This document shows, piece by piece, positions 2 to 35,410 of a stretch of 35,410 bases of DNA (its first letter is position 1; every line of letters begins with the position of its first letter). The notes beneath the pieces are model-generated. The model was given only the letters and a program-made list of their open reading frames with translations, did not search any database and was not told where the DNA came from. The stretch is from Prevotella sp. (GTDB lineage: Bacteria; Bacteroidota; Bacteroidia; Bacteroidales; Bacteroidaceae). A program made the translations under genes and the position numbers. The stretch spans positions 1 through 35,410 of the forward strand of contig JAGCRH010000039.1 of NCBI GenBank assembly GCA_017964785.1, written 5' to 3'.

Positions 2-4245
<4,244 letters not shown>

Positions 4246-4269
<24 letters not shown>

Positions 4270-6708: not shown

Positions 6709-6731
6709 ATCGGTATATTAGTATTTGGCGA

Positions 6732-6763
6732 CAAAATTACGCAATTTTTTTGTTTTTCCCAAA
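6732..6763 (-). promoter_or_regulatory. Promoter of the GH2 gene
   Basis: On the minus strand a TTTG (plus-strand CAAA, 6760-6763) is followed after 20 bp by TAATTTTG (plus-strand CAAAATTA, 6732-6739). This matches the Bacteroidetes primary-sigma consensus TTTG / TAnnTTTG in sequence and spacing. The predicted transcript starts around 6726-6728, giving a leader of about 19 nt before ATG 6708. Confidence 0.75.
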
Positions 6764-6780
6764 AATAATGCGTAATTTTG
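6749..6780 (+). promoter_or_regulatory. Promoter of the GH13 neopullulanase gene
   Basis: TTTG (6749-6752), 20 bp, then TAATTTTG (6773-6780) matches the Bacteroidetes consensus exactly. Its -33 box lies inside the spacer of the opposite promoter and vice versa. Transcription should start near 6784-6787. That is only 8-10 nt before ATG 6794 but about 20 nt before ATG 6806, matching the leader length of the divergent gene. Confidence 0.75.
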
Positions 6781-6793
6781 TACCCAAGAATAA

Positions 6794-9018: not shown

Positions 9019-9048
9019 TTGATTTTATGGTAATAAGTAGTACTTTTG
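9019..9048 (+). promoter_or_regulatory. Promoter of the DUF3575/fimbrial operon
   Basis: TACTTTTG (9041-9048) fits the TAnnTTTG -7 box. Nineteen bases upstream is ATTG (9018-9021), one mismatch from the TTTG -33 box. The predicted transcript begins near 9052-9055, leaving about 12 nt before ATG 9067. The weak -33 box suggests a moderate or regulated promoter. Confidence 0.55.
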
Positions 9049-9066
9049 TTGTGTCAAACGTTTGAG

Positions 9067-9729
9067 ATGGATATATTTACAACCCAAAAACGACCAATTT
9101 TAATAGCGTTGCTATTATTTTTCTGCGTCTTTCAAGATGCGGTTGCTCAGCGTGTTGCCCTGCGTAACAACCTCCTCTATGATGCCACTTTGACCCCAAA
9201 TCTGGGAGCCGAAATACGGCTTGACAGTACGTGGACGTTGGGTCTGAATGTCGGTCTGAATGGCTGGGATATTGACAAGTCCGCCAACAAGAAATGGCGT
9301 CATATCCTCGTTTCCCCCAATGTCCGCTGGTATCATAACTACAAGCGTGACACGGTCTTTGTTTCCGGTCAGACGAACGGTGACCACAGTACGGTGAACT
9401 ACGATGTTCTTACTCGCCGTGTCAATTATCTGGAGTTGGATGCTATTTATAGCCACTTCAATGTGGGAAATACCAAGATTCCCTTTGGCCTCTACTCCGC
9501 TGTCAAGGACCGTCGTCTGCAAGGCGACCTTTTGGCACTGGGCGGCAAATATGGGTATAGTTGGATACTCTCCCGCGACTGGCGCATTGAGGCCGAGGTA
9601 GGCATTGCCATCGGCTACGCTTGGTTCAAGGAGTACGACTGCGATCACTGCGGCACCTACTATGGCAAGGGTGACCGTATCTTCTTACTACCCCAGTTGG
9701 GTGTAAATGTTGTATATATAATTAATTAG
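9067..9729 (+). CDS. DUF3575-family outer-membrane protein
   Basis: A 220-residue protein with a signal peptide ending in CVFQDAVAQ, then RVALRNNLLYDATLTPNLG and many alternating aromatic/polar strands typical of a small outer-membrane beta-barrel. Length and the opening motif fit the DUF3575 family, which in Bacteroidales is often encoded with Mfa/FimA-type fimbrial genes. The likely role is assembly or anchoring of the fimbria at the outer membrane (inference). I chose ATG 9067 over the upstream in-frame TTG 9046, because 9046 lies inside the -7 promoter box. The first fimbrillin gene starts 67 bp downstream. C-terminal residues CDHCGTYYGKGD contain two cysteines that could pair. Confidence 0.8.
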   Translation: MDIFTTQKRPILIALLLFFCVFQDAVAQRVALRNNLLYDATLTPNLGAEIRLDSTWTLGLNVGLNGWDIDKSANKKWRHILVSPNVRWYHNYKRDTVFVSGQTNGDHSTVNYDVLTRRVNYLELDAIYSHFNVGNTKIPFGLYSAVKDRRLQGDLLALGGKYGYSWILSRDWRIEAEVGIAIGYAWFKEYDCDHCGTYYGKGDRIFLLPQLGVNVVYIIN

Positions 9730-19861: not shown

Positions 19862-21013
19862 ATGAAGATGATGAGACGCTATATACATATTAATGTGCGC
19901 GCGAGGCTGTGGCCGATGGCATGGGGCATGATGTTCTGTGTAGGATGCATGACACTTGCGTCCTGCTCATCCGACAGTGATGTTCCTGATGAGACGCCTG
20001 ACAATCAGTTGAGGCTGGCATCTGTAACCAGGGCCACCGACATCGACGACGGCTATGTTATCCAAGAAGACAGCAAGTTGTGGCTGGCCCTGACCTCCGG
20101 CTCAGGTTCTGTTCCTGATTCAAAGGGCATCTATACATTAGAAAATACAGCCTGGAAGGGTGGTGTCACGGTGAAAGAGGCCAAGCAGTATTATATCTAC
20201 GGTGTCATGTCGCCCACAGGTGCTATTACCGACGGCGCAGTACCGACATGCACGATTACCTCCGGCGACTTCTCCGAGGGTGCCACGCTGACCATCAAAG
20301 GTCAGCCGACGATGGTTGAAGAAGGTCTTGTGCCTTGTGTGGTGGTGGGCGTAAGGGGCGTAACAGATCGAGACGATGCTTCCACTAATTGGGATGTTAA
20401 CGAAGGCAGCTTCGGCTATATGGGTATTCTGAAGAAAGGTCAGGACAATGCACAACTGTTGCTCGACCGCCTCTATGCCGCCCTCTTCTTCAGTTTCACC
20501 ATCGATGAAGACTATGGCAATCTGCGCACCATCAAGTTGAAGACCATGACGATGACGGCAGCCGCAGGCACCAAGGCAACGGTAGACCTTACTGTAAGAT
20601 TGGAAGCAAGGAGCAACGGTACGAGTCCTATTGCCTCGGTGTCGGCAACAGCCGTAGAAAGCGCAGGGGCTTTGGGCTCTATTACAATGTTTGATAACTC
20701 TGCGGGCATGGATATCACCGACCTGACGGCTGAAAAACAGGCAGTAGCCACCAACGAAGGCGGCAAGATCAAATCCGCCTGTTTTGCTCCCGGCGTGGCC
20801 GACGGTCTCATATTGACTTGTGTCTACAATGTCTACGACAAGGCAGGCAACGACCTTGGTAAGCGTACCGCCGTGAACTCCCTCAGCAACGTCGTTACCA
20901 CCGGTTCGCTGCTTCATGGACAGCGGAGGCCCATCGTGCTTAAAGTGACCCCTACCTATTTATATATATTGTCGGATGAAGACCTTGACAACCCCACAAT
21001 TAAGATTCAGTAA
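19862..21013 (+). CDS. Fimbrillin family lipoprotein (Mfa-like), probable accessory/tip subunit B
   Basis: A 383-residue lipoprotein with lipid cysteine C35 (TLASCSSDSD) and a TR motif (RLASVTRATD, R57). It carries the C-terminal signature GQRRPIVLKVTPTYLYILSDEDLDNP seen in Mfa-like fimbrillin-family proteins (split here as GQRRPIVLKV then TPTYLYILSDEDLDNP). Starts at 19862, 19868 or 19871 are all possible because the N-terminus reads MKMMRR. Its 3' end overlaps the annotated start of the giant gene by 38 bp, suggesting translational coupling of this subunit to the adhesin. A role linking pilus tip and adhesin is attractive but inferred from position only. Confidence 0.75.
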   Translation: MKMMRRYIHINVRARLWPMAWGMMFCVGCMTLASCSSDSDVPDETPDNQLRLASVTRATDIDDGYVIQEDSKLWLALTSGSGSVPDSKGIYTLENTAWKGGVTVKEAKQYYIYGVMSPTGAITDGAVPTCTITSGDFSEGATLTIKGQPTMVEEGLVPCVVVGVRGVTDRDDASTNWDVNEGSFGYMGILKKGQDNAQLLLDRLYAALFFSFTIDEDYGNLRTIKLKTMTMTAAAGTKATVDLTVRLEARSNGTSPIASVSATAVESAGALGSITMFDNSAGMDITDLTAEKQAVATNEGGKIKSACFAPGVADGLILTCVYNVYDKAGNDLGKRTAVNSLSNVVTTGSLLHGQRRPIVLKVTPTYLYILSDEDLDNPTIKIQ

Positions 21014-24000
21014 GACATTGAAGACGAAACATATCATAATAAGCATATTGTTGTTCCTGACTGCTGCGGCAGGACAGGCACAGACTCAGATTCTCATCGG
21101 CGGCAGCGTGTATGGCGGCGGTAATATGGGTGTGGTCGATGGCAACACTACCGTCACAGTGAGAGGTGGTGACATCGACCGTGTCTATGGAGGTGCCCGT
21201 ATGGCCAATGTCAATGGCAGAGCCTTCGTCCACCTCGACGGTGAGCACGCCTCCATGCCTTATACCATCATCAACTACGTCTATGGCGGCAACGACATTG
21301 CCGGAAAGATCGGCACATTCAATACCCTTCCTGATACGCTGACACATACCACAGAAAACGAGATCAATGAAACTTGGAATGCTTTTGTACGTATTTCATC
21401 AAAGACCATTACCCCTGCTGTATATTATACGCAGGCAGAAATAGATGCAGCAAATGAAGGTGATCCCGCCTATGGTAAAACGACCAGTGACATAAAGATA
21501 CCTGAGATAGACAACAACCAGAAGATCTACATCGGCCAACTCTTTGGCGGTGGTAACGGTGATTATCCCTATTCCACTAAGAAAGATAATGGCAAATATG
21601 ACCTCACCCTTGACGGCACTGAATATAAGGATATAGAAAAGCCTGAACTTGACAGAACCTACCTGGAACTTCTCGGCGGTTCAATCGTGTATGCTTTCGG
21701 TGGTGGCAACAACGTCACGGTGAAGCAGAAGACGGTAATCTATGTCAACAATCCGACCAAGGTAGTCAACAGCATCATTGACACAGACAATCAAAACGAA
21801 TATACAAATACTTCGACTGGTCAACTGCTGACCAACGACCGTATCCTCTATGGGATGGGTCTGAATACGGCAACCACCTATCCTACCAGCGGCGAATACC
21901 AAATTGGTTGTTTCTTCGGTGGCAACAACAAGGCCGAGATGGCCATTCAGCCTATATGGCATCTCATCGACGGCGATATCCGTAACATTTATTCTGGGGG
22001 TAACCAGGGTGATATGACCTGTTCGGTGGGCTTGCTCTTAGAGATTCCAGAGGGATCCACTATCACGGCTGACAATATCTATGGCGGCTGTCGCCGGGCC
22101 GATGTCCATCCGAAAAACGCTGACGGCTCCGAGGTGTCAGCGGTACCCAGCCCCGAAGGCTATCAATTCCCTGCCGGTCTGTCGGCACGTGTGCTGATTA
22201 AGGGTGGCGAAGACATCAACAATGTCTATGGCGGCAACGATATATCTGGTAGTGTCTGGGGCGGCTCTGCCGTGGGTATCTATCACAGTATCCGTGGTAA
22301 TGTGTATGGCGGTGGAAACGGCTCCTACGCCTATACTGACAGAGACTATTTGAAGGATGACCTCACTTGGGGTGACTTCTACTATGACCCCTCTAAGGCA
22401 GCCTCATCCGTGGAGGCCCTCAACGCCCACCGTCCGAATGTGGAACAGACCTCCGTGCGCCTCTGGGGAAAGGATGCGACCCATCCTACCATCATCGGCG
22501 GTTCTGTCTATGTGGGTGGCAACAGCGCTACGGTGAAGCCAGACCCGGTGAAAGCCGCGGACAAAGTCAATTATCCCAACTATCCTAAAGTGGAATTGAA
22601 GATCGGCTCTTATGTGATTGCCGACGAAGTGTTCCTTGGTAACAACGGTGAGAACATGGTGAGTACGACGGCATACCCGAGTGATCCGGCGAAAAACGAT
22701 CCGTTGCTGAAATATGCGGGCGATGTGACCGACTTCAATGGAAATGATAAAAAGTTCAGTTCATTGGATCTTACCGATGATGACACCTTCGCCACCTATA
22801 TGAAGGGTGCAGAGATGACACAGAAGCCAAGCGTGGTGTTCGATGCCAAGCCTGGCGATCCCGATACCTATAAGGCATACAGTTCCTTCTTCGGATCTAT
22901 CTATTGTGGTGGTAATAGGGGCAGTATGAATGTCAGTGCTTGCACCGAGATTACCTTTGCCCATGAGATTGTCGTATTCGACAAACTCGTTGGTGGCTGT
23001 AACGACGCCTATATACCTGCGACTACCTATAATGCCGCCTTCGACGGTGGACTTATCGGCGCTCCGCCAACATCCGGCGACGATAAAGGAATCAAACTCA
23101 AACTGAACATTGGTGGACTGAAGATCCAGCCCAAGCGTTGGGTGATAGTTGATGGAAAGAAAACACGTCTGGAATGGAACACCGTGGATGAGGATGGTAA
23201 TCCGACAGATCCCGTTGAGACGCTGGACAAGGATTCGGGAAAGGACTACGAGACTACGGATGACAACGACCTGAACCGGCGCTTTGAGGGTGGCAATATC
23301 TATGGCGGTTGCTATAGTAGTGGCCATGTGAATGGCAATGTGGTCATCAACATCAATTCCAGCATCATCGACCGCGACCTACTCTTTGACAAGGTGGTCA
23401 CCGACGATCTGGGCGAGGAGATATCCCTCTATGGTACTGACGTGTTGAACCAACAAGAGGAATACCATATCACTGAGCGTCGCACCGGCGTGATTCTCGG
23501 TCAGCAGGGTATGGACGTGCTCGGCAAGGCCCTCAATGTGTTCGGTGGCGGCAAGGGTAGAGACACGGAGATATGGGGTAGCACCACCATCAACCTGAAC
23601 GAAGGCTATGTCTTCCAGGTGTTCGGCGGTAGCGAAGAAGGTGTTATCGGTAAGCCGAATGACGGCACAGGTACCAATACATGTGTGTTCAACGGCAAGA
23701 CATACAAACAGGACGACAAGTACAGTTGTTACATTAACCTGAACGGTACGGTGCCTGGTACATCGAAGAATGGTACTCAAGGCGATACGGGCAGTAAAAT
23801 GGCTGAGGTGGAGTTCATCTACGGTGGTGCCTTCTTAGGGCCCGTGGCAGGTAATACCGTCATCAACCTCGGTAACGGACGAATCTTCAACTCGTTTGCC
23901 GGCTCCTGTAACGGTGACATCCTCGGACATACGGAGACTTATATCGGCGGCGACGGCACTACCGTGACGGGCTTCCCCTACATCCGTGACTACGTCTATG

Positions 24001-27000
24001 GCGGCAACGACCTCGGCGGCGAGATCAAGGGAACGAAAAACTTTAACGCTTCAGGTAGCAGCCGTTTAAGCACGGATCTGCCGATTACCATACATAGTGA
24101 TGACGTGACAACAGCCTCTGCCTATACGGAGTACACCCAAGGGCGCGCTTTGGGTATCTTCGGTGGTTGTTTCGGTACTTACAATTATAAACTTCGGAAA
24201 TTCAGTGACTACACCGATGACGAAGGCACAGCCCTGACAGGCTTCACCAAGCCCCGTCTGGACAATGCCTTTGTGAACTTCCGTCCGACGAAGACCGACC
24301 TGCTTATGACCAATGAAAACAATGTGGTAAGCACCATCTACGGTGGCGGTCAGGGTTATCCGGGCGATGGTGACCGCGACATTATGCAGAACCGTAGTTA
24401 CATCCTCATCGACATCCCGCAGGAGATGACCAACTATCGTGATCTGGAAGTGTTCGGTGCAGGTGCTTGGGCAGGACAAGGCATGAGGACATATCTGGAT
24501 CCGGCCACAACAGAGGAGACGGAACTTCATAAGGTGTCCGCTATCATCGACCTGGCGCGTGGTCAGATCGGTTCGGTCTATGGCGGCAGTTATAAGGAGG
24601 GCTTCACCCGTCGTACATGGGTCAGCGTGCCTGAAGGCTCCACCATCAGACTGGGCTATCAGACCGTGCATGAAGATGTTGATGATGATGGTAATAAGAC
24701 CACCTATACCATTACTCATGGCGGATCACTCTTCGGCGGTGCCTACGGTGTGACGAACGACAATGTCTGTGATGTCTATGAGGCCAATGTGGAGTACCAT
24801 AGTGAAGATGCCCGTGTGTTCTACATCTATGGTGGTAACAATGCCGCGCGTCGTACGCTCTACGGACGGGTGAACATCGACGTGCCGGTATGGACCTTCG
24901 AACCGTCATCCAAATGGCTGGCCACCGTCTATGGTGCAGGCTACGGTGAAAACACCTGGTCGCAGTATACTGAGGTAAACTTGAAAGGGAACGACGATGC
25001 TAACATCGATGGTGCCAAGGTCTATCAAGTGTTCGGCGGCGGTTATAATGGTAAGGTGATGAATAAGGCGACCGTCCAGAAATGGGCTGGCAGTACGATT
25101 CCGTTGGACATGGGTGTCTATGCAGCAACCGGAAAAGAAACTAACATCAAGGGCCTCGGTCTTGATAATCCGCTGGTCAGGTTGACAGAACTGGGCGATA
25201 CCTGTAATACCAACGTGCGAATTTACCGAGGGGCCACATCCGGACACGATGCCATCACCAAAGGCGGTTATGCCTACGGCGGCGGTCAGGGTACAAAAAC
25301 CATTGACAAGAGCGGCGATGTAAATGGCTCTACCTATATCGCCCTCCTCGGCGGAACGGCCTACAGGGATATTTATGCTGCAGGTACTGTGGGTGCCGTG
25401 CTGGATGAGTATGGCGAACAACTCCCTGAAAAGCAACGTTTTACTGCCACTGCCAATGCCTACATTGCCGGAGGCTCGGTGCGTAACGTCTACGGTGGCG
25501 GTTACATGGGTAGTGTCGGTCTGCACGAGGTAAATGGCAAGCGAGAGGGTGATATCTCTGGCGATACCACTGGTGACATCCTTGGCAGAACCAATGTGGT
25601 CATCGGTATCCGTAAGGATCAGACAGATGCTAATCTGCTGAAGGCTATTCGGGCAGTGAAGGGCAGCAGTGAAACTTCAACAGCCTTGGATTTCTACTGT
25701 GGCGTGCCTACCGTGCAACGTAATGCTTACGGCGGCGGTGAGGGTGAGACGCAGAAGGGTGGACGTGGCGGTGCTGTCTTCGGCACAGCCAACCTGACAC
25801 TGAATAATGGCGCAATAGGATATTATTACGACCCGACGACGGTCACTACCTCTATCGATGGATTACCCGTTGGCTATGCTAGAAAGATCGATGACGAGAC
25901 TTATTATGTGGGTGAAGTCTGGAAGGGTGAGGGTACCCTGAAAGACTATGGCAACCTGTTTGGCGGCGGTTATAGTGATAGGAGTAACGTTGACTTTACG
26001 AATGTCACAATGTGGGGCGGCGTGCTCCGAGGCAGTCTGCATGGTGGTGCCGAGGTGGCTGCCATCGGTCGTGGCAAGACTACAGAGATTCCCAATAGTT
26101 CCCAACGCACGTTGGATGAGATATACAAGCCGGGAAGCACCAAGGTGACGATGTACAACGGTCATGTGAGGCGTAATGTGTTTGGCGGCGGCAAAGGCTA
26201 CAACCTACAGGGCTATGGTGGTGCCAATGAACTCTTTACTGACGGTTATGTGTTCGGTACGACTGAGGTGTATATACATGGCGGCGAGGTTGGTACGGCT
26301 GAAGGTGTGGTCGTCCAGGAAGACGGTTCCGGTGGCGACGGCAACGTGTTCGGCGGCGGCGACATCGGCTATGTGTATAGCGATGCTTACCGGGCTGAGG
26401 CAACAGACTCGCCTGACCATTACTATTACAGAAAAGGCGGTGCAAACGGTGTACTGACGGAGGACTGTAAGGTGGTCATTTCACCCTATCTGCAAATCAA
26501 GAAAAACGGTACACCTGTAACCTATCCTGCATCTGGAACAGGTTCAAAGACATATAATGCCTACGATTATGTGCCGACAGACTATCTGAACACCCTGCCA
26601 AAGAAGAACAGTAGTGGCACTTATGGAGGTGGGTGGACCAACCTCTATACCGGTGCCAACAAGAATAGTACAGATCCTAATGCAGACGACAAAGAGGAAC
26701 GCGGCGTGATTATCCGCAATGCTGTGTTTGGAGGCGGCAATGTGTCGACGAAGAAGGAGACCTTCGCCAACGCCAAGACCGTGTTCGGCAATACAACCGC
26801 CACACTCAACGATGTCTATCACCGCGACTTCATCACGGTGGGTACCGAGCACATCGGCGGTCTCTATGGTGGTGGTAACCTCTCATTGGTTGATGGCTAC
26901 CGTGAACTGAATATCACCAACTACGGCACAGACTACTATGGCCTGAACCAGCGAATCACGTTGAGTGAGTATAATAACATGTCAAACCGCGAGAGAGCCT

Positions 27001-30000
27001 ACTTCCAATTGGAGTATCTGTGTATGACCGAAAACAACGGATATAAAGTTAATGAAAGAATCTCAGAGGAGGTTTATAATGGCTTGCCTGATGACGACAA
27101 GCAATACTGGCAAGAGTTCGGCTTCTGCAGTATCTATGCCGGACGACTGCTGAACACCATCCAACGAGCCGACTTCTGTGGCGTCTTCGGCAGTCGTATG
27201 GTACTGCAGGGTGCCAAGGATCGTGTGCCTGACGTGGCCGATGCTACACCCTACACCATCAACCGTGTGAGTGAATTGTCGCTCAACAAACAGCGTTCGG
27301 CAAGAACGGGAGAGGGATATACTGATCCTGATGAAGGCGACGACGCCATCCATGGCAACTACTTCGGCATCTACAGTTACGTCAACTACCTCGGTAACTT
27401 GACCAGCGACGTGAATTTCTACGAGGACACACGTCAGGTGTTGAAAAAAGATGGAAATGGAAATGTTGAAACAGATGCAAATGGAAAAGAAAAGATCACG
27501 GATGCCTCAGATGGTAAGGAATACTATAATTATAAATTGGATAACCCGGCCAGTAAAACCCGTAATGAGGGCTGTAGCCTCAACCAGGTGGCTCTGGCAT
27601 CAGGTGTGTTCCTGGAACTGACCACAGAGGAGAGTACGGAAGAGGAGAAGGTCTATGGCTATATCACGGGTGTCATCGAACTCGACCTGATCAATGTGAA
27701 GCAGGACATCGTGGGCGGTGGCTATGTGTATGCCAAGAACGAGCATGGAACAAGATATAAAAAAGATAACTTCCAGACTGTAATTTTGTCTCCTTATAAT
27801 AAGATTGAAGGTAATCTGGTACGTACCCACAAAGAGGATGGATACTATGAAGGTGCTGAAAATCTTAAAGAAATCGAGACCTCGGGTAACTTCATTCACC
27901 GAAGCAAGACCATCATCGACGACTGTTATCCCACCAACAATGCCTTTAATCCTAGTAATAAGCCTTATTCCGAGGCGCACTATTGGTATATCAAAGGTTC
28001 GGTATATGTCTACGAACAGGTGGTGTCGGCCTATACGGGTAGTGCCAACGCCTATTCGAAGGAAGTGAACCTGCCGCTGACCATCACCGCAGCCTCGAAT
28101 GGTAAACTGAAACTGCTCAACGTGCAACCCAGTAAATATGCCTATTATAAGTCATATACAGATGCCAGTACAAACACACCAATGGGCACGGACGATGAGA
28201 TCAAGGTGAACAACGAGGTGGATATCTACCACCTGAACGATGTCATCAGTTATTGGGACTGGAGTCTGCTGCCAGCGAATGAACAGAAATACTTCGTTGA
28301 CAAGACTTACGTTAATGCCATCACGGTGACGGTTGGCGAAACATCGTATGCTCCTGGCACAATCGTGATGCTTCCCACTGAGTATAACACATACAGTCAG
28401 ACCATTACTTATAATGATGCGACGGGCAATCCTGTAACCAAGAGCAGCGGTGATACAGGTTATGCCGACGCTAAGGCATACGTGTTCCGCTTGTCTAACG
28501 ACATCAGTCACGATACGGGCTATGTGCTCACCTTCGACATGAAGAACCCCAAAGACTGGGACAACTGGTTCTCGATAAAGGATATGTCAACAGATGGTTA
28601 CTCGAAGATCGACAGTGTAACTTATAAAAATCTGACTCCTGAAGAGAAGAAATTATTATATTTGGAAGGCCCGTCGTTCAGACCGAAAGAAGTAACAACA
28701 GGTACTTACGAATACACATACGGCCAGAAGCAGCATACTAAAGGCGAAATCATCACCAAAGAGGTCTATAACCTCTATCCAACCGCCGACAAGAGTAAGG
28801 CAGCGGTGGCCTATGTGGCAACAGAAGCAGTCACTTACACCTATAACGGTCTAAAAAAGACTGTCAACAAAGGAATGGCGATACCGTATGAGGAATATAA
28901 TCATGACGATCTTGCTTCTGTGAAGAGTAAATTTGCCAAGGCATACGTCTGCTTTAGCACGCTGAAGTTGGACGAGGAGAAGTATATCACCAAGGGCGAC
29001 CTGCTGACAAGCGACTCTATCACAACCTTGAAGACCACCTATTCAGCACTTGCTACAAAAATACAAGATGTGATGACAGAGGCCTATATTTGTAAGGAGG
29101 ATGGTAAGTATGGCGGTCAGGTATACAACACCAACACTAACTATAGTGCCATTGGCAGTTGGTGCTCCATTAATGAAGACGAACATGATAAATTCGTATT
29201 TAACTACGATGCCCTCGACCTGCTGATAGACAAGAACTATAGAGGTATTCCGGCACGCTATGATGTTGAGACGGGTACTCCGTCACCGGCTCTATACAGT
29301 GCAGAGAAGTCGATAGAGTACACTGCCAAATTTGTACCGGTGACAAATGTTATATCATCTATAACCTATAACGATGGAACCACAGACCATACGCTCACAG
29401 GTAGTTCGGATGCCATATCCAGTTACGACTACGAGCACTTTATTACCAACGAACAGCGTCACTATACCAAGTTGACGAGTGGCATTCATGTATATAAAGT
29501 CACGACCGCCTTCACTGACGGAAGTGTAACATATAGTGTAGGGGAAACAGTGGAACAAAGTGTTTATACTGCACACCAAGATAATGTGAAGGATATTGTA
29601 TATATTGCTAAGGATAATTTCATATACAAAGGTGAGCCGTATTCTATCGGACAGACGGTGAAGGAGGAGATTTACACTGCAAGTCAAGACCCAAGAAACT
29701 CAGAAAGTGACTTCTATCAAAAGGTGGCCGATCACGAATATAATGATGCTGAACCATACTACTGCTACGAGGCGTATGGCAGCACCCCCGTGGGTACAAC
29801 AATAACAGAGAATGAATATACCAACACTCTGGTAAACGATCAGCAGTACTTCACGATACAGGGTACACAGCCCACCGAGACCACCACCTTCTATGTCAGC
29901 AGCGAGAGCGATGTCTACAACCTGTCGAAGGAGAAGATCATCACCGTGGTCTATCAGTACACCTATAATGAAGAGAGTGAGGGAGGCGGTTTGAAGACCA

Positions 30001-33000
30001 CCAGCGAACTGCATGTGGTGAACATCCACCTGCAGATGGAGAGTGGTGTGCCGGAGATAGGACCGCTTGCACCGCCTGCTACCGTACTGCCCGGTGAGAC
30101 CGTCGGCATGGAGAGGCCAACGGTGTCGGAAGGACTCTATGAAATCCTGACCACCGGATGGGAACTGTATGCCAGCAAGGATGATGCCGAGCACCACCGC
30201 AACGGTAAGCCGTTTGTGAATGGTGGTACTCCTGTGTACTGGTATCAGAACGGCCATGATAACATGGGCGGCTACGTGGCCTTCTATGCACAGACCTATC
30301 TTGGCTATACTTATTCGAAACCTGTGCCCCTGAGCGTGGCCAACTACCATGACCTGAAGGCGGTGATGGAAGACAAGGAGAACCACTACTTTATCGACCA
30401 GGTCGGTATGGAGCGCGCCCCAAAGATCTATATCAACGACTACACCACCGATAACCCGGCAACATCGCAGAACGGCCTCGACCTGCTGAAGAATCTCTTC
30501 GACCTGAGTTGCAGTAGTACGGCTGAGACAGATGAAACAAAACCTCTCTATGGCCATACTTTGCTGAACACGAATCAGGTGGGAGCCTGTAAGAACCTGG
30601 AGTTCATCCTGCGTACAGACATCAACCACACAGGTACATGGGATGGTATAGGTACCAATAATACCACTGGCTGCTTCGACGGCACAATCCACGGTGACGG
30701 ACATACCATCAGCGGACTCACGGGTTCGCTCTTCAACCACCTCTGCGGCGATGTCTATAACCTTGGCGTGACAGGTACGTTCACTTCCGCCGGTATTGCC
30801 GACGAAGGTAACGGTTACCTCGAGAACTGTTGGGTGAAGGGTGGTGCGGCTGCATCAGGTATCAAGGCGGTGTTCAATAACCCCAGCGGCTCAGGATCGC
30901 ATACCATTAACATGGTGAACTGCTACTATCCCTCTTCTGCGGGCTATACGGCTCAGACAGGTGCCAAGGGTATGCCGGACAAGAGTTTCTATAACGGTGA
31001 GGTGGCCTACAACCTGAATGAGTTCTACCTCTTCAAGCGCTACTGCGACAACACATCGTCTATTACAAGTAATGATTATACCTACCTGACGGATGAGGGC
31101 GGTGAGACGCTGACTCCGCATATTAACGGACATTATGCGGATATCAGCGGTCCATGGCTGGTGAAGGATGGAGAAAATCACTACATACCGGGCAAGGGCA
31201 GTTATGTGGAGAGCCGCTATACCGACGGTGACTTCATCTATGATGCCGGTAACGAGGGAGAAATACCCACAAAGGCCAACATCCGCTACTACACATACAC
31301 GGATACGAGCACCTCACCGGCTACGGTCAAGACTGGCTATGCACCCATCTGGCCCGACGACTATCTCTTCTTCGGACAGATGCTGACCTATGGACACGAC
31401 AGCAACCGCAGTTATCAGGACTTGCCGTCCGTCATCAATAGGGATGCTGACAATGGCTTCCGTCTGATGACTGGCATGAAGATTGAGAACAGTAACCGCG
31501 TGTACCGCGCTCCGGCCTACTACGGCTCGAGCACGATGGACGTGGCGCACTTCAACCCCAGTGCCATCTTCGCCAAGACAAAGAAGGACGATGCAAGCGT
31601 GGAGGCCTACAAGGGCATGACAGCCATCGACTTCACGGGCTATCATGACAATACAACCTCTAACTACGTGTGCGGCTGGGCCGACCATAAGGAGGCATCG
31701 CCCTATTGGACTGCCAACACTACCAGCACGGGCCAGTTCTATCCGCCACTGCTCGACGATGACGGACTGATAGGCTTCAAGAACGTAGACCTGACGAAGA
31801 ACCTGCTGGTATATACCGGTACTGCGGCTCCAGCCAAGGAGGCGACAAACGATAAGGTAAGAGCCTATCTCGGTGATATGGCATACGCAGACAAAGTGAC
31901 AAACACCACCTACGGCACAGTGGCTCCGTCGGGCGATATCGACAAAGAGACCAACCTCATCCTGGCTGAGAATATACATGGCCATCGTGTGGAACTGACG
32001 GAAGGCAATTACAAGGCCCTGAACGACCACCTGCTGGTGGACAAGCAGGACTTCAATGCGCCTATATCGTACACCTTCGACACAGGCTGTCGTATGTGGT
32101 ACCAGCGCAACCCGGACAACTTTGTGACGTCTGAGTGGGACAACGCTGGCAACCGGTCAACGAAGGGCTGGGAGGGTGTCAGCATCCCGTTCAAGGCGGA
32201 AATCGTGACCACGCAGACGAAGGGTGAACTGACGCACTTCTATAGTACGAGCCTCAAGGGCCATGAGTACTGGCTGCGCGAGTTCAAGGGTGATGTCCAA
32301 CAAGTGGGTACGTCAGATGTCTGGACAGCCAAATTCAGTGCTCCAACAGCAAACAGTGACGGCTCGAAGACGGTTACTAATTCTTTCCTATGGGACTACT
32401 ATTATTGGGAGATCAATGAGCCTCATCATCAGGATTCCAATAACGATATTTACCAGCAGCCTCAGGATGAGAACGACTATCAATATTATAAGCCTGGTAC
32501 TAATCATGTTGTGAATACTTTCGAGAACTATCCGCGACTGGCTGCGGGACGTCCGTATAATATCGGATTCCCAGGTGCTACTTACTATGAGTTTGACTTG
32601 AGCGGCACCTTCGCTCCCACCACCACTGCCGATCCTGATCCCGTAAAACTTGCCGATCCGCAGATCATCACTTTCGCCTCGGCGACAGGTACCACCATTC
32701 TCGTGAGCGAAACGGAACTTGAAGCAGGTGCAGTAACCCCATCGGAGTGTAACTATACCTTCACGCCCAACTACATGAGCAAGAGCATCGACGCTGGTGC
32801 ATTCTTCCTCAATAGCAATGGAAACTGTTATGTTGAGACTGCTGCCGCGACAGAGGCTGTACCGTTCCGTCCGTACTTCACGACAACAACCACAGCCCGC
32901 GAGAAGACCCGTAGCATCATCTTCAACAATGATGATGAACAATTGAAGGGTGTGGAAGAACGCGACCTGCGCGGCGAGGAGTATGGTAGTCTGGACATCT

Positions 33001-33200
33001 ACGCTAAGCGTAAGAAGATCGTCGTGGAGTCGAACCTCCACGAGACCACCGAGGTGCGCATTGTGAATACTGCCGGTATCACCGTCACCACCTTCGACAT
33101 TGAGCCGGGCGAGACCGTTGAGACCCGTATCAACAACGCCGGTGTCTACATCGTCCAGACCGCCGATGCCCACTATACCAAGAAACTCATCGTGAAATAA
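20976..33200 (+). CDS. Giant YGG-repeat secreted protein with T9SS sorting domain (putative adhesin)
   Basis: A 4074-residue exported protein with the signal peptide core IIISILLFLTAAAGQAQ. TTG 21018 (KTKHIIISILL) would give a shorter signal and remove the overlap with the upstream gene, so the start is uncertain. Residues about 40-2250 hold more than 30 glycine repeats of the form [VIL][YF]GG[GNSCA], best seen as a unit of about 25 residues: VYGGGN.G.v.GNT.V.v.GG.i. Examples are VYGGGNMGVVDGNTTVTVRG, VFGGGYNGKV and LYGGGNLSLVDGYRE. This suggests a long beta-solenoid. Residues about 1987-2052 and 2405-2965 contain a second, tyrosine-rich repeat (aY...Y..G..i...EYn...ddq.Yf). Residues about 3195-3330 are GLUG-like (FDGTIHGDGHTISGL). 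The end, from about 4005 (LDIYAKRKKIVVESN ... VRIVNTAG ... AGVYIV ... KKLIVK), matches a T9SS type A sorting domain. It is probably surface-attached; the ligand is unknown. I do not recognise a named family for the repeats. Confidence 0.85.
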   Translation: MKTLTTPQLRFSKTLKTKHIIISILLFLTAAAGQAQTQILIGGSVYGGGNMGVVDGNTTVTVRGGDIDRVYGGARMANVNGRAFVHLDGEHASMPYTIINYVYGGNDIAGKIGTFNTLPDTLTHTTENEINETWNAFVRISSKTITPAVYYTQAEIDAANEGDPAYGKTTSDIKIPEIDNNQKIYIGQLFGGGNGDYPYSTKKDNGKYDLTLDGTEYKDIEKPELDRTYLELLGGSIVYAFGGGNNVTVKQKTVIYVNNPTKVVNSIIDTDNQNEYTNTSTGQLLTNDRILYGMGLNTATTYPTSGEYQIGCFFGGNNKAEMAIQPIWHLIDGDIRNIYSGGNQGDMTCSVGLLLEIPEGSTITADNIYGGCRRADVHPKNADGSEVSAVPSPEGYQFPAGLSARVLIKGGEDINNVYGGNDISGSVWGGSAVGIYHSIRGNVYGGGNGSYAYTDRDYLKDDLTWGDFYYDPSKAASSVEALNAHRPNVEQTSVRLWGKDATHPTIIGGSVYVGGNSATVKPDPVKAADKVNYPNYPKVELKIGSYVIADEVFLGNNGENMVSTTAYPSDPAKNDPLLKYAGDVTDFNGNDKKFSSLDLTDDDTFATYMKGAEMTQKPSVVFDAKPGDPDTYKAYSSFFGSIYCGGNRGSMNVSACTEITFAHEIVVFDKLVGGCNDAYIPATTYNAAFDGGLIGAPPTSGDDKGIKLKLNIGGLKIQPKRWVIVDGKKTRLEWNTVDEDGNPTDPVETLDKDSGKDYETTDDNDLNRRFEGGNIYGGCYSSGHVNGNVVININSSIIDRDLLFDKVVTDDLGEEISLYGTDVLNQQEEYHITERRTGVILGQQGMDVLGKALNVFGGGKGRDTEIWGSTTINLNEGYVFQVFGGSEEGVIGKPNDGTGTNTCVFNGKTYKQDDKYSCYINLNGTVPGTSKNGTQGDTGSKMAEVEFIYGGAFLGPVAGNTVINLGNGRIFNSFAGSCNGDILGHTETYIGGDGTTVTGFPYIRDYVYGGNDLGGEIKGTKNFNASGSSRLSTDLPITIHSDDVTTASAYTEYTQGRALGIFGGCFGTYNYKLRKFSDYTDDEGTALTGFTKPRLDNAFVNFRPTKTDLLMTNENNVVSTIYGGGQGYPGDGDRDIMQNRSYILIDIPQEMTNYRDLEVFGAGAWAGQGMRTYLDPATTEETELHKVSAIIDLARGQIGSVYGGSYKEGFTRRTWVSVPEGSTIRLGYQTVHEDVDDDGNKTTYTITHGGSLFGGAYGVTNDNVCDVYEANVEYHSEDARVFYIYGGNNAARRTLYGRVNIDVPVWTFEPSSKWLATVYGAGYGENTWSQYTEVNLKGNDDANIDGAKVYQVFGGGYNGKVMNKATVQKWAGSTIPLDMGVYAATGKETNIKGLGLDNPLVRLTELGDTCNTNVRIYRGATSGHDAITKGGYAYGGGQGTKTIDKSGDVNGSTYIALLGGTAYRDIYAAGTVGAVLDEYGEQLPEKQRFTATANAYIAGGSVRNVYGGGYMGSVGLHEVNGKREGDISGDTTGDILGRTNVVIGIRKDQTDANLLKAIRAVKGSSETSTALDFYCGVPTVQRNAYGGGEGETQKGGRGGAVFGTANLTLNNGAIGYYYDPTTVTTSIDGLPVGYARKIDDETYYVGEVWKGEGTLKDYGNLFGGGYSDRSNVDFTNVTMWGGVLRGSLHGGAEVAAIGRGKTTEIPNSSQRTLDEIYKPGSTKVTMYNGHVRRNVFGGGKGYNLQGYGGANELFTDGYVFGTTEVYIHGGEVGTAEGVVVQEDGSGGDGNVFGGGDIGYVYSDAYRAEATDSPDHYYYRKGGANGVLTEDCKVVISPYLQIKKNGTPVTYPASGTGSKTYNAYDYVPTDYLNTLPKKNSSGTYGGGWTNLYTGANKNSTDPNADDKEERGVIIRNAVFGGGNVSTKKETFANAKTVFGNTTATLNDVYHRDFITVGTEHIGGLYGGGNLSLVDGYRELNITNYGTDYYGLNQRITLSEYNNMSNRERAYFQLEYLCMTENNGYKVNERISEEVYNGLPDDDKQYWQEFGFCSIYAGRLLNTIQRADFCGVFGSRMVLQGAKDRVPDVADATPYTINRVSELSLNKQRSARTGEGYTDPDEGDDAIHGNYFGIYSYVNYLGNLTSDVNFYEDTRQVLKKDGNGNVETDANGKEKITDASDGKEYYNYKLDNPASKTRNEGCSLNQVALASGVFLELTTEESTEEEKVYGYITGVIELDLINVKQDIVGGGYVYAKNEHGTRYKKDNFQTVILSPYNKIEGNLVRTHKEDGYYEGAENLKEIETSGNFIHRSKTIIDDCYPTNNAFNPSNKPYSEAHYWYIKGSVYVYEQVVSAYTGSANAYSKEVNLPLTITAASNGKLKLLNVQPSKYAYYKSYTDASTNTPMGTDDEIKVNNEVDIYHLNDVISYWDWSLLPANEQKYFVDKTYVNAITVTVGETSYAPGTIVMLPTEYNTYSQTITYNDATGNPVTKSSGDTGYADAKAYVFRLSNDISHDTGYVLTFDMKNPKDWDNWFSIKDMSTDGYSKIDSVTYKNLTPEEKKLLYLEGPSFRPKEVTTGTYEYTYGQKQHTKGEIITKEVYNLYPTADKSKAAVAYVATEAVTYTYNGLKKTVNKGMAIPYEEYNHDDLASVKSKFAKAYVCFSTLKLDEEKYITKGDLLTSDSITTLKTTYSALATKIQDVMTEAYICKEDGKYGGQVYNTNTNYSAIGSWCSINEDEHDKFVFNYDALDLLIDKNYRGIPARYDVETGTPSPALYSAEKSIEYTAKFVPVTNVISSITYNDGTTDHTLTGSSDAISSYDYEHFITNEQRHYTKLTSGIHVYKVTTAFTDGSVTYSVGETVEQSVYTAHQDNVKDIVYIAKDNFIYKGEPYSIGQTVKEEIYTASQDPRNSESDFYQKVADHEYNDAEPYYCYEAYGSTPVGTTITENEYTNTLVNDQQYFTIQGTQPTETTTFYVSSESDVYNLSKEKIITVVYQYTYNEESEGGGLKTTSELHVVNIHLQMESGVPEIGPLAPPATVLPGETVGMERPTVSEGLYEILTTGWELYASKDDAEHHRNGKPFVNGGTPVYWYQNGHDNMGGYVAFYAQTYLGYTYSKPVPLSVANYHDLKAVMEDKENHYFIDQVGMERAPKIYINDYTTDNPATSQNGLDLLKNLFDLSCSSTAETDETKPLYGHTLLNTNQVGACKNLEFILRTDINHTGTWDGIGTNNTTGCFDGTIHGDGHTISGLTGSLFNHLCGDVYNLGVTGTFTSAGIADEGNGYLENCWVKGGAAASGIKAVFNNPSGSGSHTINMVNCYYPSSAGYTAQTGAKGMPDKSFYNGEVAYNLNEFYLFKRYCDNTSSITSNDYTYLTDEGGETLTPHINGHYADISGPWLVKDGENHYIPGKGSYVESRYTDGDFIYDAGNEGEIPTKANIRYYTYTDTSTSPATVKTGYAPIWPDDYLFFGQMLTYGHDSNRSYQDLPSVINRDADNGFRLMTGMKIENSNRVYRAPAYYGSSTMDVAHFNPSAIFAKTKKDDASVEAYKGMTAIDFTGYHDNTTSNYVCGWADHKEASPYWTANTTSTGQFYPPLLDDDGLIGFKNVDLTKNLLVYTGTAAPAKEATNDKVRAYLGDMAYADKVTNTTYGTVAPSGDIDKETNLILAENIHGHRVELTEGNYKALNDHLLVDKQDFNAPISYTFDTGCRMWYQRNPDNFVTSEWDNAGNRSTKGWEGVSIPFKAEIVTTQTKGELTHFYSTSLKGHEYWLREFKGDVQQVGTSDVWTAKFSAPTANSDGSKTVTNSFLWDYYYWEINEPHHQDSNNDIYQQPQDENDYQYYKPGTNHVVNTFENYPRLAAGRPYNIGFPGATYYEFDLSGTFAPTTTADPDPVKLADPQIITFASATGTTILVSETELEAGAVTPSECNYTFTPNYMSKSIDAGAFFLNSNGNCYVETAAATEAVPFRPYFTTTTTAREKTRSIIFNNDDEQLKGVEERDLRGEEYGSLDIYAKRKKIVVESNLHETTEVRIVNTAGITVTTFDIEPGETVETRINNAGVYIVQTADAHYTKKLIVK

Positions 33201-33201
33201 G

Positions 33202-33220
33202 CCACAGATAACACAGATTG
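33202..33220. repeat. CCACAGATAACACAGATTG dispersed-type repeat between the last two genes
   Basis: The sequence in the short gap resembles the CCACAGATTACACAGATT motif found between genes in many bacterial genomes. Only one copy is present in this window, so the assignment rests on recall. Confidence 0.35.
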
Positions 33221-33223
33221 AAT

Positions 33224-35410
33224 ATGACACAAGATATGAAGAAGGATACGATATTACAGACCATAGCGCAACTGGCAGTCCGCTTCAAGCGGACTACCAG
33301 TCCGCTTCAAGCGGACTGCCAGTCCCCTTCAAGCGGACTGCGAACAATACTCCTGCTCCTGATATTTACGTTAGGAGCCGTAACTTCGTGGGGAGATCCG
33401 ACAGAAATCACTTCTCTTAGTGATATTGGTGCAACTGGAAATTATATTATAAAGAATGATATTAGTGCATCTGGGTTCACGACCTCCATTTCTACTTTTA
33501 GTGGTACATTGACTGCTCAAGCAAAGAGTGATGGAACATTCCCTGTTATTACGGGACTCACTGTGCCCATTTTTACCACGGCAACAGGCGCCACTATCAG
33601 CAACCTTATGTTTAAGAGTATCGCTGTTTCTGGCAGTGGATACGTTGGCGCAATCTGTGGCACGGCTAATGGCACCACCAGAATTTATAATTGTGGTATA
33701 CTGCCCAATACACCCGACAATCCTAACAATACGGCAGAGAAACCAACAAATCGCTCTACTGTGACTAGCAGTGACAATCATTGTGGTGGTTTAGTTGGCT
33801 ATCTTGACGGTTATGCCCGTGTTATTAATTGCTTCAGTTATGCTAATGTTTCTGCGGGCAGTAGTAGTAATGCAGGAGGTTTAGTGGGTCATAATACCAC
33901 CGCTACCATGCAGGGCAATAGTCAGGAAAACTTCAATAACAACGTCAAAACAATGGTTGTGAACTGTATGTTCTATGGAGACATTACCGCAGGCGGCACA
34001 AAACGCCCTGTCTATGGTGGTACAGCCATTGTTAACAACGCTGCAGACAAGGTTAATAACTACAACTACTATTGTGAAGAAGAGGCCTCATTTGACGATA
34101 GCTATAATAATATTAGCAACTACAATTATTCTTGGCCTGTTGCAAAAAAACACCTGATACGCTTTGAAATTTATCGTAACATTCTCAACAGTAATCGCCG
34201 TCTCTGTACTTGGTGGGTAAACGGATCATATAATACTTGCCCAACTGATGCAAATGTAGAGTCTGTTGGCATAGCCAAGTGGGTGCTGGATCAGACTATT
34301 GCCCCCTATCCTATATTGAAGAAATGGGGCAAGTATTATTCTACCTTTGACATCGACCCTGATAAGGTCTGGAACCCTGAAAAAAAAGAGAAGGTGGCAC
34401 GTAGTAATGCCAAACCATGGCAAGGCAAAAGTTATTCTACACTGAGTGTTACTATTAAGGCAGGTTCGAACAATAGCAGTGCAGACGATGTTACGAAACC
34501 TATTACCATCACAGATATGGACACATTGAACTACGACTATTGTGCAAAAAAGATACAACTGCCTTACTACAATGAAATCTTTGGTAATTCCCAAGGTGCC
34601 ACATGGGCTGCAAAATATGGCAATAATTATACAACTAAGGTGGTCACAGGTTGGAAGGTGACGAAGGTTAATGGTAGTGAAACAGGTTCTGGCCCGGATT
34701 TTTCCGAAGACTGGGAAAGTGGTTACAACTTCGCCGATCGTACTTCCACCAAAAAGGACCTATATGGTGTCAGTGGTCGGGTCTTTGCTCAAGGTGGTTA
34801 CTACTATGTGCCTGATAACGTTACTAGTATTGAAATCGAAGCCTATTGGGGTAATGCCGTTTATCTATGCAACAGCAATCGCCGCCTTGACAAAATGAAT
34901 AATGGTACAAGTGAGTTCTACATTTCAGGCAAATTGCCAGAAAAAGTAGGTGGAATAACTGATAATCCAACGGTACAGACCTCTTTGCAAAGTGCCGTTG
35001 GTGCATTGAAAAAAATTAGTGAAAATGACTCACCAGGTAATACGGTCTATGACCAGGCCATTGTTCTCGTAGGCAACTATCAGGACAATAGTTGTCATAC
35101 TTACCTTACTCTTGCAGGCAATAAATATGATACAGATGCCAAACCCTTTACCATTATGAGTGCAGACTTCGACTTTGACAATGAGCCTGACTTCTGCTTT
35201 CAGGCTGGTATGAACAATGTTAGCCGTCCTAACTTCCAGCCCATCCGTTTCGATTTCCTGATGGTGCCGGACATTACGATGGCCATCCGCTCCGGCCTCA
35301 ACTATTGGGGCGTTCGTAACATCTGTCCGCAGGGGCATTACGAAGTGACAGAAACTTCGTATATGTATGTAACTCAGTTCGAATATGAAATAAGGACAGG
35401 CGATAACAAA
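33224..35410 (+). CDS. Large exported surface protein with GLUG-like repeats, 3'-truncated by the window edge
   Basis: The frame from ATG 33224 is open for 729 codons to the last base, so this is a real gene that runs off the window. ATG 33236 (MKKDTILQ) is an alternative start. The N-terminus has a charged region coded by three palindromic repeats, then a hydrophobic core ILLLLIFTLGAVTSWG and probable cleavage. Residues about 70-290 form a GLUG-like beta-helix (GGLVGYLDGYARVINCFSYA, GGLVGHN). Later parts (GYNFADRTSTKKDLYGVSGR, YYYVPDNVTSIEIEAYWG, RPNFQPIRFDFLMVPDITMA) resemble regions of large Bacteroidales surface proteins, but no named domain is assigned. It starts 23 bp after the giant adhesin and is AT-richer from about 33370. 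It may be a partner of the giant protein; a sorting domain, if any, would be outside the window. Confidence 0.8.
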   Translation, partial: MTQDMKKDTILQTIAQLAVRFKRTTSPLQADCQSPSSGLRTILLLLIFTLGAVTSWGDPTEITSLSDIGATGNYIIKNDISASGFTTSISTFSGTLTAQAKSDGTFPVITGLTVPIFTTATGATISNLMFKSIAVSGSGYVGAICGTANGTTRIYNCGILPNTPDNPNNTAEKPTNRSTVTSSDNHCGGLVGYLDGYARVINCFSYANVSAGSSSNAGGLVGHNTTATMQGNSQENFNNNVKTMVVNCMFYGDITAGGTKRPVYGGTAIVNNAADKVNNYNYYCEEEASFDDSYNNISNYNYSWPVAKKHLIRFEIYRNILNSNRRLCTWWVNGSYNTCPTDANVESVGIAKWVLDQTIAPYPILKKWGKYYSTFDIDPDKVWNPEKKEKVARSNAKPWQGKSYSTLSVTIKAGSNNSSADDVTKPITITDMDTLNYDYCAKKIQLPYYNEIFGNSQGATWAAKYGNNYTTKVVTGWKVTKVNGSETGSGPDFSEDWESGYNFADRTSTKKDLYGVSGRVFAQGGYYYVPDNVTSIEIEAYWGNAVYLCNSNRRLDKMNNGTSEFYISGKLPEKVGGITDNPTVQTSLQSAVGALKKISENDSPGNTVYDQAIVLVGNYQDNSCHTYLTLAGNKYDTDAKPFTIMSADFDFDNEPDFCFQAGMNNVSRPNFQPIRFDFLMVPDITMAIRSGLNYWGVRNICPQGHYEVTETSYMYVTQFEYEIRTGDNK
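33276..33340. repeat. Three tandem 19-bp palindromes (22-bp period) in a signal-peptide coding region
   Basis: AGTCCGCTTCAAGCGGACT occurs at 33277-33295 and 33299-33317, and with one substitution at 33321-33339, separated by ACC and GCC. Each can form a 9-bp stem. The 22-bp period is not a multiple of three, so the copies are read in three different frames (VRFKRT, SPLQAD, SPSSGL). This shows conservation at DNA rather than protein level. Confidence 0.9.

Follow-up and report, generated by a model that had tools for sequence, protein, structure and literature searches.

A giant YGG-repeat protein with a T9SS sorting domain at the end of a type V pilus operon in a Prevotella-related gut bacterium

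A protein of about 4000 residues, in which some 30 glycine repeats are largely fixed, is encoded by the last gene of what its sequence matches identify as a type V pilus operon, in a Prevotella-related gut bacterium. The protein represents an uncurated family, and both the family and its size are new. It is paired with a fimbrillin-like lipoprotein, here called X, encoded directly upstream, and the module formed by the two genes is also new. The giant most likely serves as an accessory or tip adhesin of the pilus. That a T9SS cargo works with a type V pilus is already known, the precedent being Mfa5 of P. gingivalis. The DNA analyzed here is a contig of 35,410 nucleotides (C128; hereafter the window) from a host genome of 2.88 Mb in 147 contigs, 81% complete. 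The open reading frame of 4074 codons on which an earlier note on this DNA had centered is real. The features discussed below are collected in Table 1.

Table 1. Features of the pilus operon, the giant protein and the downstream gene in the window.
Feature	Coordinates	Strand	Basis or remark
DUF3575 protein, first operon gene	9046..9729	+	PF12099, E=9e-43
F1, large lipoprotein, 643 aa	9749..11680	+	lipobox Cys40, TR at 75; alignment A7
F2, large lipoprotein, 653 aa	11683..13644	+	lipobox and TR; alignment A7
F3, large lipoprotein, 687 aa	13664..15727	+	lipobox and TR; alignment A7
Mfa2-like anchor lipoprotein, 369 aa	15747..16856	+	PF08842 in family; alignment A5
F4, large lipoprotein, 577 aa	16871..18604	+	lipobox and TR; alignment A7
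FimA-like fimbrillin lipoprotein, 414 aa	18615..19859	+	PF06321 P_gingi_FimA
X, fimbrillin-like lipoprotein, 383 aa, proposed adaptor	19862..21013	+	alignment A2; directly upstream of giant
Giant protein ORF, 4074 aa	20976..33200	+	last gene of the type V pilus operon
YGG-repeat region of giant, residues 45 to about 1990	21108..26945	+	motif, profile and alignment
GLUG/M26-like region of giant, residues about 3236-3372	30681..31091, boundaries approximate	+	profile A9, weak
T9SS type A C-terminal sorting domain, residues 4014-4074	33015..33197	+	TIGR04183
D1, second giant, 5' part, open at window end	33218..35410	+	GLUG/M26_N-like: PF05342 6e-9, PF07581 7e-5

The pilus operon adjoins a set of starch and oligosaccharide genes (GH97, pullulanase-like, GH2 and cyclomaltodextrinase) at positions 11-8761. 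Its first gene, that of the DUF3575 protein, encodes about 500 residues in many orthologs, one of which (L048:6131-7726) combines DUF3575 with OmpA and TPR matches below the cut-off. The bulk of the operon consists of four related lipoproteins, F1 to F4, whose alignment (A7) contains a near-invariant R75. This group gave no PDB match and, in Pfam, two chance-level matches, each in one of 14 members; no known fimbrial family was recognized. In the anchor family, PF08842 (Mfa2) matches six of the 11 members aligned, at best with 3.6e-8, but not the window's own; the alignment (A5) has an invariant Cys37, where the lipobox script gave Cys18 instead. The FimA-like gene matches PF06321 (P_gingi_FimA) with 25.1 bits (cut-off 21.4). 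Its profile (A6) yields weak matches to solved fimbrial proteins (E between 0.0019 and 0.06), with the tip subunit Mfa3 at 0.016.

Lipoboxes were located by a simple script, and signal peptides were judged by eye. A lipobox and a TR site were found by the script in F1 to F4, in the FimA-like protein and in X, and a putative arginine cleavage site is invariant or near-invariant in the alignments of X (A2) and of the FimA-like protein (A6). The earlier description of a fimbrial operon of lipoproteins is borne out by the Mfa2-like anchor family, the FimA-like subunit and the lipoboxes.

The ATG start of the giant gene gives an overlap of 38 nt with the reading frame of X. An in-frame TTG at 21018, 4 nt past the stop codon of X, yields an N-terminus that resembles, by eye, those of several close orthologs. 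The overlap is therefore probably a start-codon artefact, and the TTG is probably the true start. Unlike the overlap, the tight spacing between X and the giant is real; across 31 loci, the giant is separated from its upstream gene by -4 to 78 nt. Thus, of the earlier claim that the giant follows and by its ATG overlaps an accessory fimbrillin gene, the first part stands, with X as the fimbrillin-like gene, and the second probably falls. A promoter at 20900-21000 had been proposed as a feature that would uncouple the giant from the operon. In a scan with the Bacteroidetes-type consensus, only two exact matches were found, both at 6732-6780, and none in 20900-21000. A match of sigma-70 type at 20917-20946 does not exceed chance expectation (three in 1601 bases compared to 1.5 +/- 1.0 expected).

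The giant was previously described as containing more than 30 repeats of a unit VYGGGN.G.v.GNT.V.v.GG.i, separated by insertions of very different length, and our counts agree with this description. Strict [VILMFA][YF]GG motifs occur 28 times, all within residues 1-2050; when the residues are shuffled 500 times, the count averages 1.5 and reaches at most 7. A looser pattern detects 33 motifs, spaced by 10 to 332 residues. A repeat profile of 32 positions was trained on the units of 32 other giants (30 family loci, L004 and the partial L003), with the window giant held out. In the window giant it identifies 31 sites that score at least 8 bits, whereas a shuffled sequence gives 0.19 such sites on average; the top score among 200 shuffles was 14.9 bits. 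This profile had replaced a first repeat HMM built from seeds of D1, the second giant encoded downstream, which found no place in the window giant. The resulting unit, G-N-[VI]-[YF]-G-G-G-N-x-[GA]-x-V-x-G-x-T-x-V, closely resembles the one proposed before.

The window giant was aligned with 31 orthologs, over which 402 of its residues are invariant. Eleven of the 28 strict motifs keep their GG columns in at least 30 of the 31 orthologs. The weakest columns have GG in two of 31 orthologs (residue 1917) or nine of 31 (residues 1121 and 1963), with the Y/F still present in 30 or 31. Since most motifs hold their column in this alignment, the number and order of the repeats appear to be old and largely fixed. 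An expanding, slippery repeat array was also considered and is ruled out by the fixed motif columns across the 31 orthologs.

No match for the giant was obtained in Pfam (E<=0.01) or PHROGs, and NCBIfam recognizes the tail only, in line with the earlier statement that the repeat has no named family. In sequence searches of the PDB, the YGG repeats gave no credible match and the giant only a chance-level dehydrogenase (E=0.6). A pattern scan of IMG/VR returned three matches, none of them a relative of the giant, and, as judged from titles and abstracts of open-licence papers, no paper was found that describes the family, its size or its constant pairing with X. AlphaFold2 models, computed from alignments with one ortholog row (L004), have a mean pLDDT of 33 for residues 37-699 (a 2-row alignment) and 27 for residues 3090-4074. 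At this confidence they show no fold, and the solenoid suggested for the repeats in the earlier note is a putative one. The profile of the C-terminal third (A9) matches 3n6z, a putative IgA1 protease, weakly (E=0.043 only). Between the YGG region and this third, at residues about 1990-2960, another repeat, of loose form and marked by EYN...E..YF motifs, can be seen by eye.

The C-terminus of the giant matches the T9SS type A sorting domain model TIGR04183, with 29.4 bits for the last 160 residues (cut-off 23) and 22.2 bits, 0.8 below the cut-off, for the whole protein. The T9SS-type tail reported previously is thus recovered, and we regard it as a type A signal on the basis of this match. TIGR04183 matches 27 of 32 aligned giant tails at E<=0.01 and leaves five without a match; the type B model is absent among the four families matched by these 32 tails. 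The Pfam tail model has no match in the window and matches two other places of the genome. Given the type A tail, the giant may be anchored covalently, as the earlier note proposed.

The export machinery is present in the host genome, which encodes SprA (2621 bits), GldL and a single frame with a Peptidase_C25 domain (1220 aa; G000:C63:38120-39271). We take this frame to be PorU-like, given its size; no further C25 frame was found that could cut the pilins at their conserved arginine. SprA was detected in 233 of 301 genomes of the family, namely in 45 of 46 with the giant versus 188 of 255 without it (Fisher p 7.5e-5, uncorrected for kinship). The sole giant-bearing genome without SprA (G010) has GldL. 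The tail might nevertheless be a relic on a protein that is periplasmic or unexpressed, as the whole-protein score just under the cut-off could indicate. Stop codons inside the giant probe match in two of the 46 matched genomes (G104 and G133) point the same way. This reading is very improbable in our judgment, as the 30 fetched family loci, which were chosen for long frames from a set in which several are short, have open frames of 3384-4388 aa, the 402 invariant residues extend over 31 orthologs, and the host has a T9SS.

X belongs to a family (A2) with an invariant lipobox cysteine (Cys35), a near-invariant arginine (Arg57, in TRA) and a conserved PTYLYQLSD-type C-terminus. PF13149 (Mfa_like_1) matches three of 19 members, the window's X not among them, and the best PDB match of X is the fimbrial protein BF1861 (E=0.17). 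X lies directly upstream at 53 of the 56 giant or giant-like loci with a readable upstream gene, and the pairing is seen in three families within the order and with two or more kinds of pilus backbone. These 53 loci comprise the 30 fetched family loci (29 genomes), L004, the window, nine more loci, six at contig ends, G238 (whose divergent giant gets its higher score with D1) and five in two other families. The 30 fetched loci were picked from the 46 matched genomes for long frames and contig room; the others were checked for the neighbor gene only. The upstream gene was not readable at G068, G145, G279 and G288, and only a piece of X is present at G102. That orthologs always sit behind a fimbrillin gene, a point raised in the earlier note, holds at all but three loci: the shorter paralogs G590:C43 and G410:C24, and the distant homolog G636, which comes from a further family and lies behind other YGG giants.

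A blastp search with the window's X matched the upstream gene at 28 of the 30 fetched family loci. The X group had been defined by position; therefore, the test was repeated with 26 X proteins for training and six held out. The resulting profile scores 101-230 bits on all six held-out proteins, both blastp misses included, and at least 100 bits on all 14 further X genes adjacent to a giant in the set searched, while the best non-adjacent gene reaches 26.5. Independent scans detected X in 46 and the giant in 46 of the 301 family genomes, with 42 genomes shared (Fisher 5.6e-42). In the four genomes with X only, the start of a giant is present, truncated by the contig end. A chance pairing of X and the giant is ruled out by this co-occurrence and by the held-out profile.

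Along starred, well-supported branches of the giant tree, the operon switches its backbone type three or more times, and X stays; G063 and G081 are almost identical in this tree. The second operon type is defined by the lack of a match to the window's F, anchor and FimA genes and is thus a mixed class. In the second-type operon of G243, five of seven genes scanned, X included, match Mfa_like_1. Among G250, G161, G152, G235a, G187, G173 and G021, the same model matches five of ten genes scanned, all five from the first three genomes. In four second-type operons, the single gene scanned in each has no fimbrial match.

The joint occurrence of X, the giant and D1 with different backbones would also be expected if X were a folding or retention partner of the giant, with neither protein in the pilus fibre and a distinct surface system residing in fimbrial operons through shared expression. 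The locus of G250, where one Mfa_like_1 gene, X, the giant and D1 are found and the rest of the operon is unrecognisable, would fit such an arrangement. We nevertheless consider it improbable, as X carries the marks of a pilin (lipobox, conserved TR site and Mfa_like_1 in three of 19 members). The recurrence of the X-giant pair in relatives suggests a joint surface structure to which two different export machines contribute.

D1 begins directly downstream of the giant. Complete D1 homologs are 1276-3961 aa long with YGG repeats in their C-terminal part, and the repeat profiles of D1 and the giant align with an hhalign probability of 98.6 (E=9e-16). None of nine D1 tails matched NCBIfam, T9SS models included; D1 proteins such as L049:6828-16145 have a signal peptide-like start and YGG repeats, without a T9SS tail model. 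D1 was detected downstream at 24 of 30 loci by blastp with the window's D1 part and at 29 of 30 with a profile that holds the repeats, as well as at L004 and in the window; no D1 was found in 4 kb of downstream sequence in G241. D1 and, weakly, the C-terminal third of the giant resemble proteins with the GLUG/M26 IgA1-protease N-terminal region. Unlike these, the proteins scanned have no protease domain, and the YGG repeats lie outside the GLUG/M26 models.

Several other features were observed in and around these genes. Three near-identical 17-bp palindromes (GTCCGCTTGAAGCGGAC type) with a 22-nt spacing are located at window positions 33278-33338, near the 5' end of the D1 coding sequence and before the signal peptide; the assembly contains no other exact copy of the pattern. 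Long low-complexity stretches (RLSRVSR, LMRLMGL) are seen by eye before the signal peptide in the giants of G152, G235a, G241 and G173 and in several D1 proteins, where it looks as though short DNA repeats grow. ORFs of 382-491 aa lie between the giant and D1 in G250, G235a, G010, G166 and G139 (L071, L073, L077, L089 and L091); by eye, we take them to resemble REP-associated tyrosine transposases. Other ORFs at this place (L039:7321-10797 in G155, and similar ones in G173, G021 and L004) encode 477-1327 aa with GLYI...KKI-type C-termini that look tail-like by eye; the one such tail scanned, that of G155, has no NCBIfam match.

The module has a patchy distribution. In an order-wide draw, the N-terminal part of the giant was found in seven of 393 genomes (the window's own included) from four families, and in the window's genus two of 22 drawn genomes carry the giant. 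Outside the window's family, the full operon type of the window occurs in G410 only; the rest have lipoprotein-like genes, an assignment made outside the Pfam scan. Two shorter YGG paralogs, L120 (G590:C43, 7103-14383; 2426 aa) and L121 (G410:C24; 1472 aa), stand alone without fimbrial genes. By eye, both are at a similar chromosomal place near an adenylosuccinate synthetase-like gene, and their last 160 residues have no T9SS-like end.

The giant resembles SprB of Flavobacterium, a giant T9SS adhesin that is not part of a pilus, in being a very large, repeat-rich T9SS cargo with a predicted place on the surface. Unlike in SprB-type adhesins, the giant tails match type A and none type B, and the giant is linked to pilus genes. 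The existence of such non-pilus adhesins, and of stand-alone YGG paralogs, would be consistent with a separate T9SS surface adhesin that is linked to surface polysaccharide by its cleaved C-terminus and shares no more than regulation with the pilus, X being the last pilus subunit. In Prevotella intermedia, T9SS tails are reported to be cleaved and the mature C-terminus to be glycosylated (PMC11969387), which would also agree. We consider a separate adhesin rather unlikely, as co-regulation leaves unexplained why X, rather than another of the subunits, is the constant neighbor while the rest of the operon varies.

The closest precedent for an adhesin that belongs to the pilus is Mfa5, described as a T9SS-exported accessory protein of the Mfa1 fimbriae of P. 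gingivalis (PMC8313007, PMC5954841). PorU cleaves the tail of Mfa5, and Mfa3 is the adaptor that binds it (PMC5954841, PMC8313007, PMC7835359); mfa5 is reported to be transcribed apart from mfa1-4 (PMC5954841). A vWF A domain is located in the N-terminal half in genotypes A-C, other genotypes being without it, and some strains have a tandem mfa5 pair (PMC8313007). Like Mfa5, the giant has a T9SS C-terminal signal and is encoded beside type V pilus genes and accessory lipoproteins, and the giant plus D1 recall the tandem mfa5 genes. Unlike Mfa5, it has YGG repeats and no vWF or other Pfam domain, and D1 has no T9SS tail. With no Pfam match, and hence no vWF domain, the giant is not an Mfa5 homolog by sequence; it is presumably about three times as long. 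X is comparable to Mfa3 and Mfa4 as a lipoprotein with a conserved arginine site and, in three of 19 members, Mfa_like_1, encoded beside a T9SS-exported protein; it differs from them in having no match to a named accessory-pilin model. The Mfa5 precedent therefore answers the surprise expressed in the earlier note at finding two export systems in one operon: the fimbrial genes and the T9SS tail are both there, and their combination is not a novelty.

We thus lean, with slightly better than even confidence, towards the giant being a T9SS-exported accessory adhesin of the type V pilus with X as its dedicated pilus-side partner. Gene order, the T9SS tail with its machinery, the largely fixed repeat layout and the X-giant pairing are the observations behind this model. 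X and the other lipoprotein subunits would take the lipoprotein route and assemble once cut after the conserved arginine (TR). The giant, directed by its C-terminal signal, would pass the outer membrane via the SprA translocon and then be cleaved by a PorU-like sortase. X would hold it at the pilus, either at the tip or in a surface complex, much as Mfa5 is connected to the Mfa1 fimbriae by Mfa3. We infer these steps of export, cleavage, physical contact with X and adhesion from the sequences.

If this model holds, Mfa5, so far one oddity of an oral bacterium, would become a recurrent Bacteroidales arrangement, and X and the giant would be a defined pair for asking how T9SS cargo joins type V pili. 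A tentative extension, which we view as possible and somewhat doubtful, is a portable tip cassette, made up of X, the giant and in most cases D1, that is swapped among different type V pilus backbones. In it, the T9SS would export a fixed glycine-repeat fibre of several thousand residues, which a dedicated pilin would then receive. If so, two unrelated export routes would meet at the cell surface to build one organelle.
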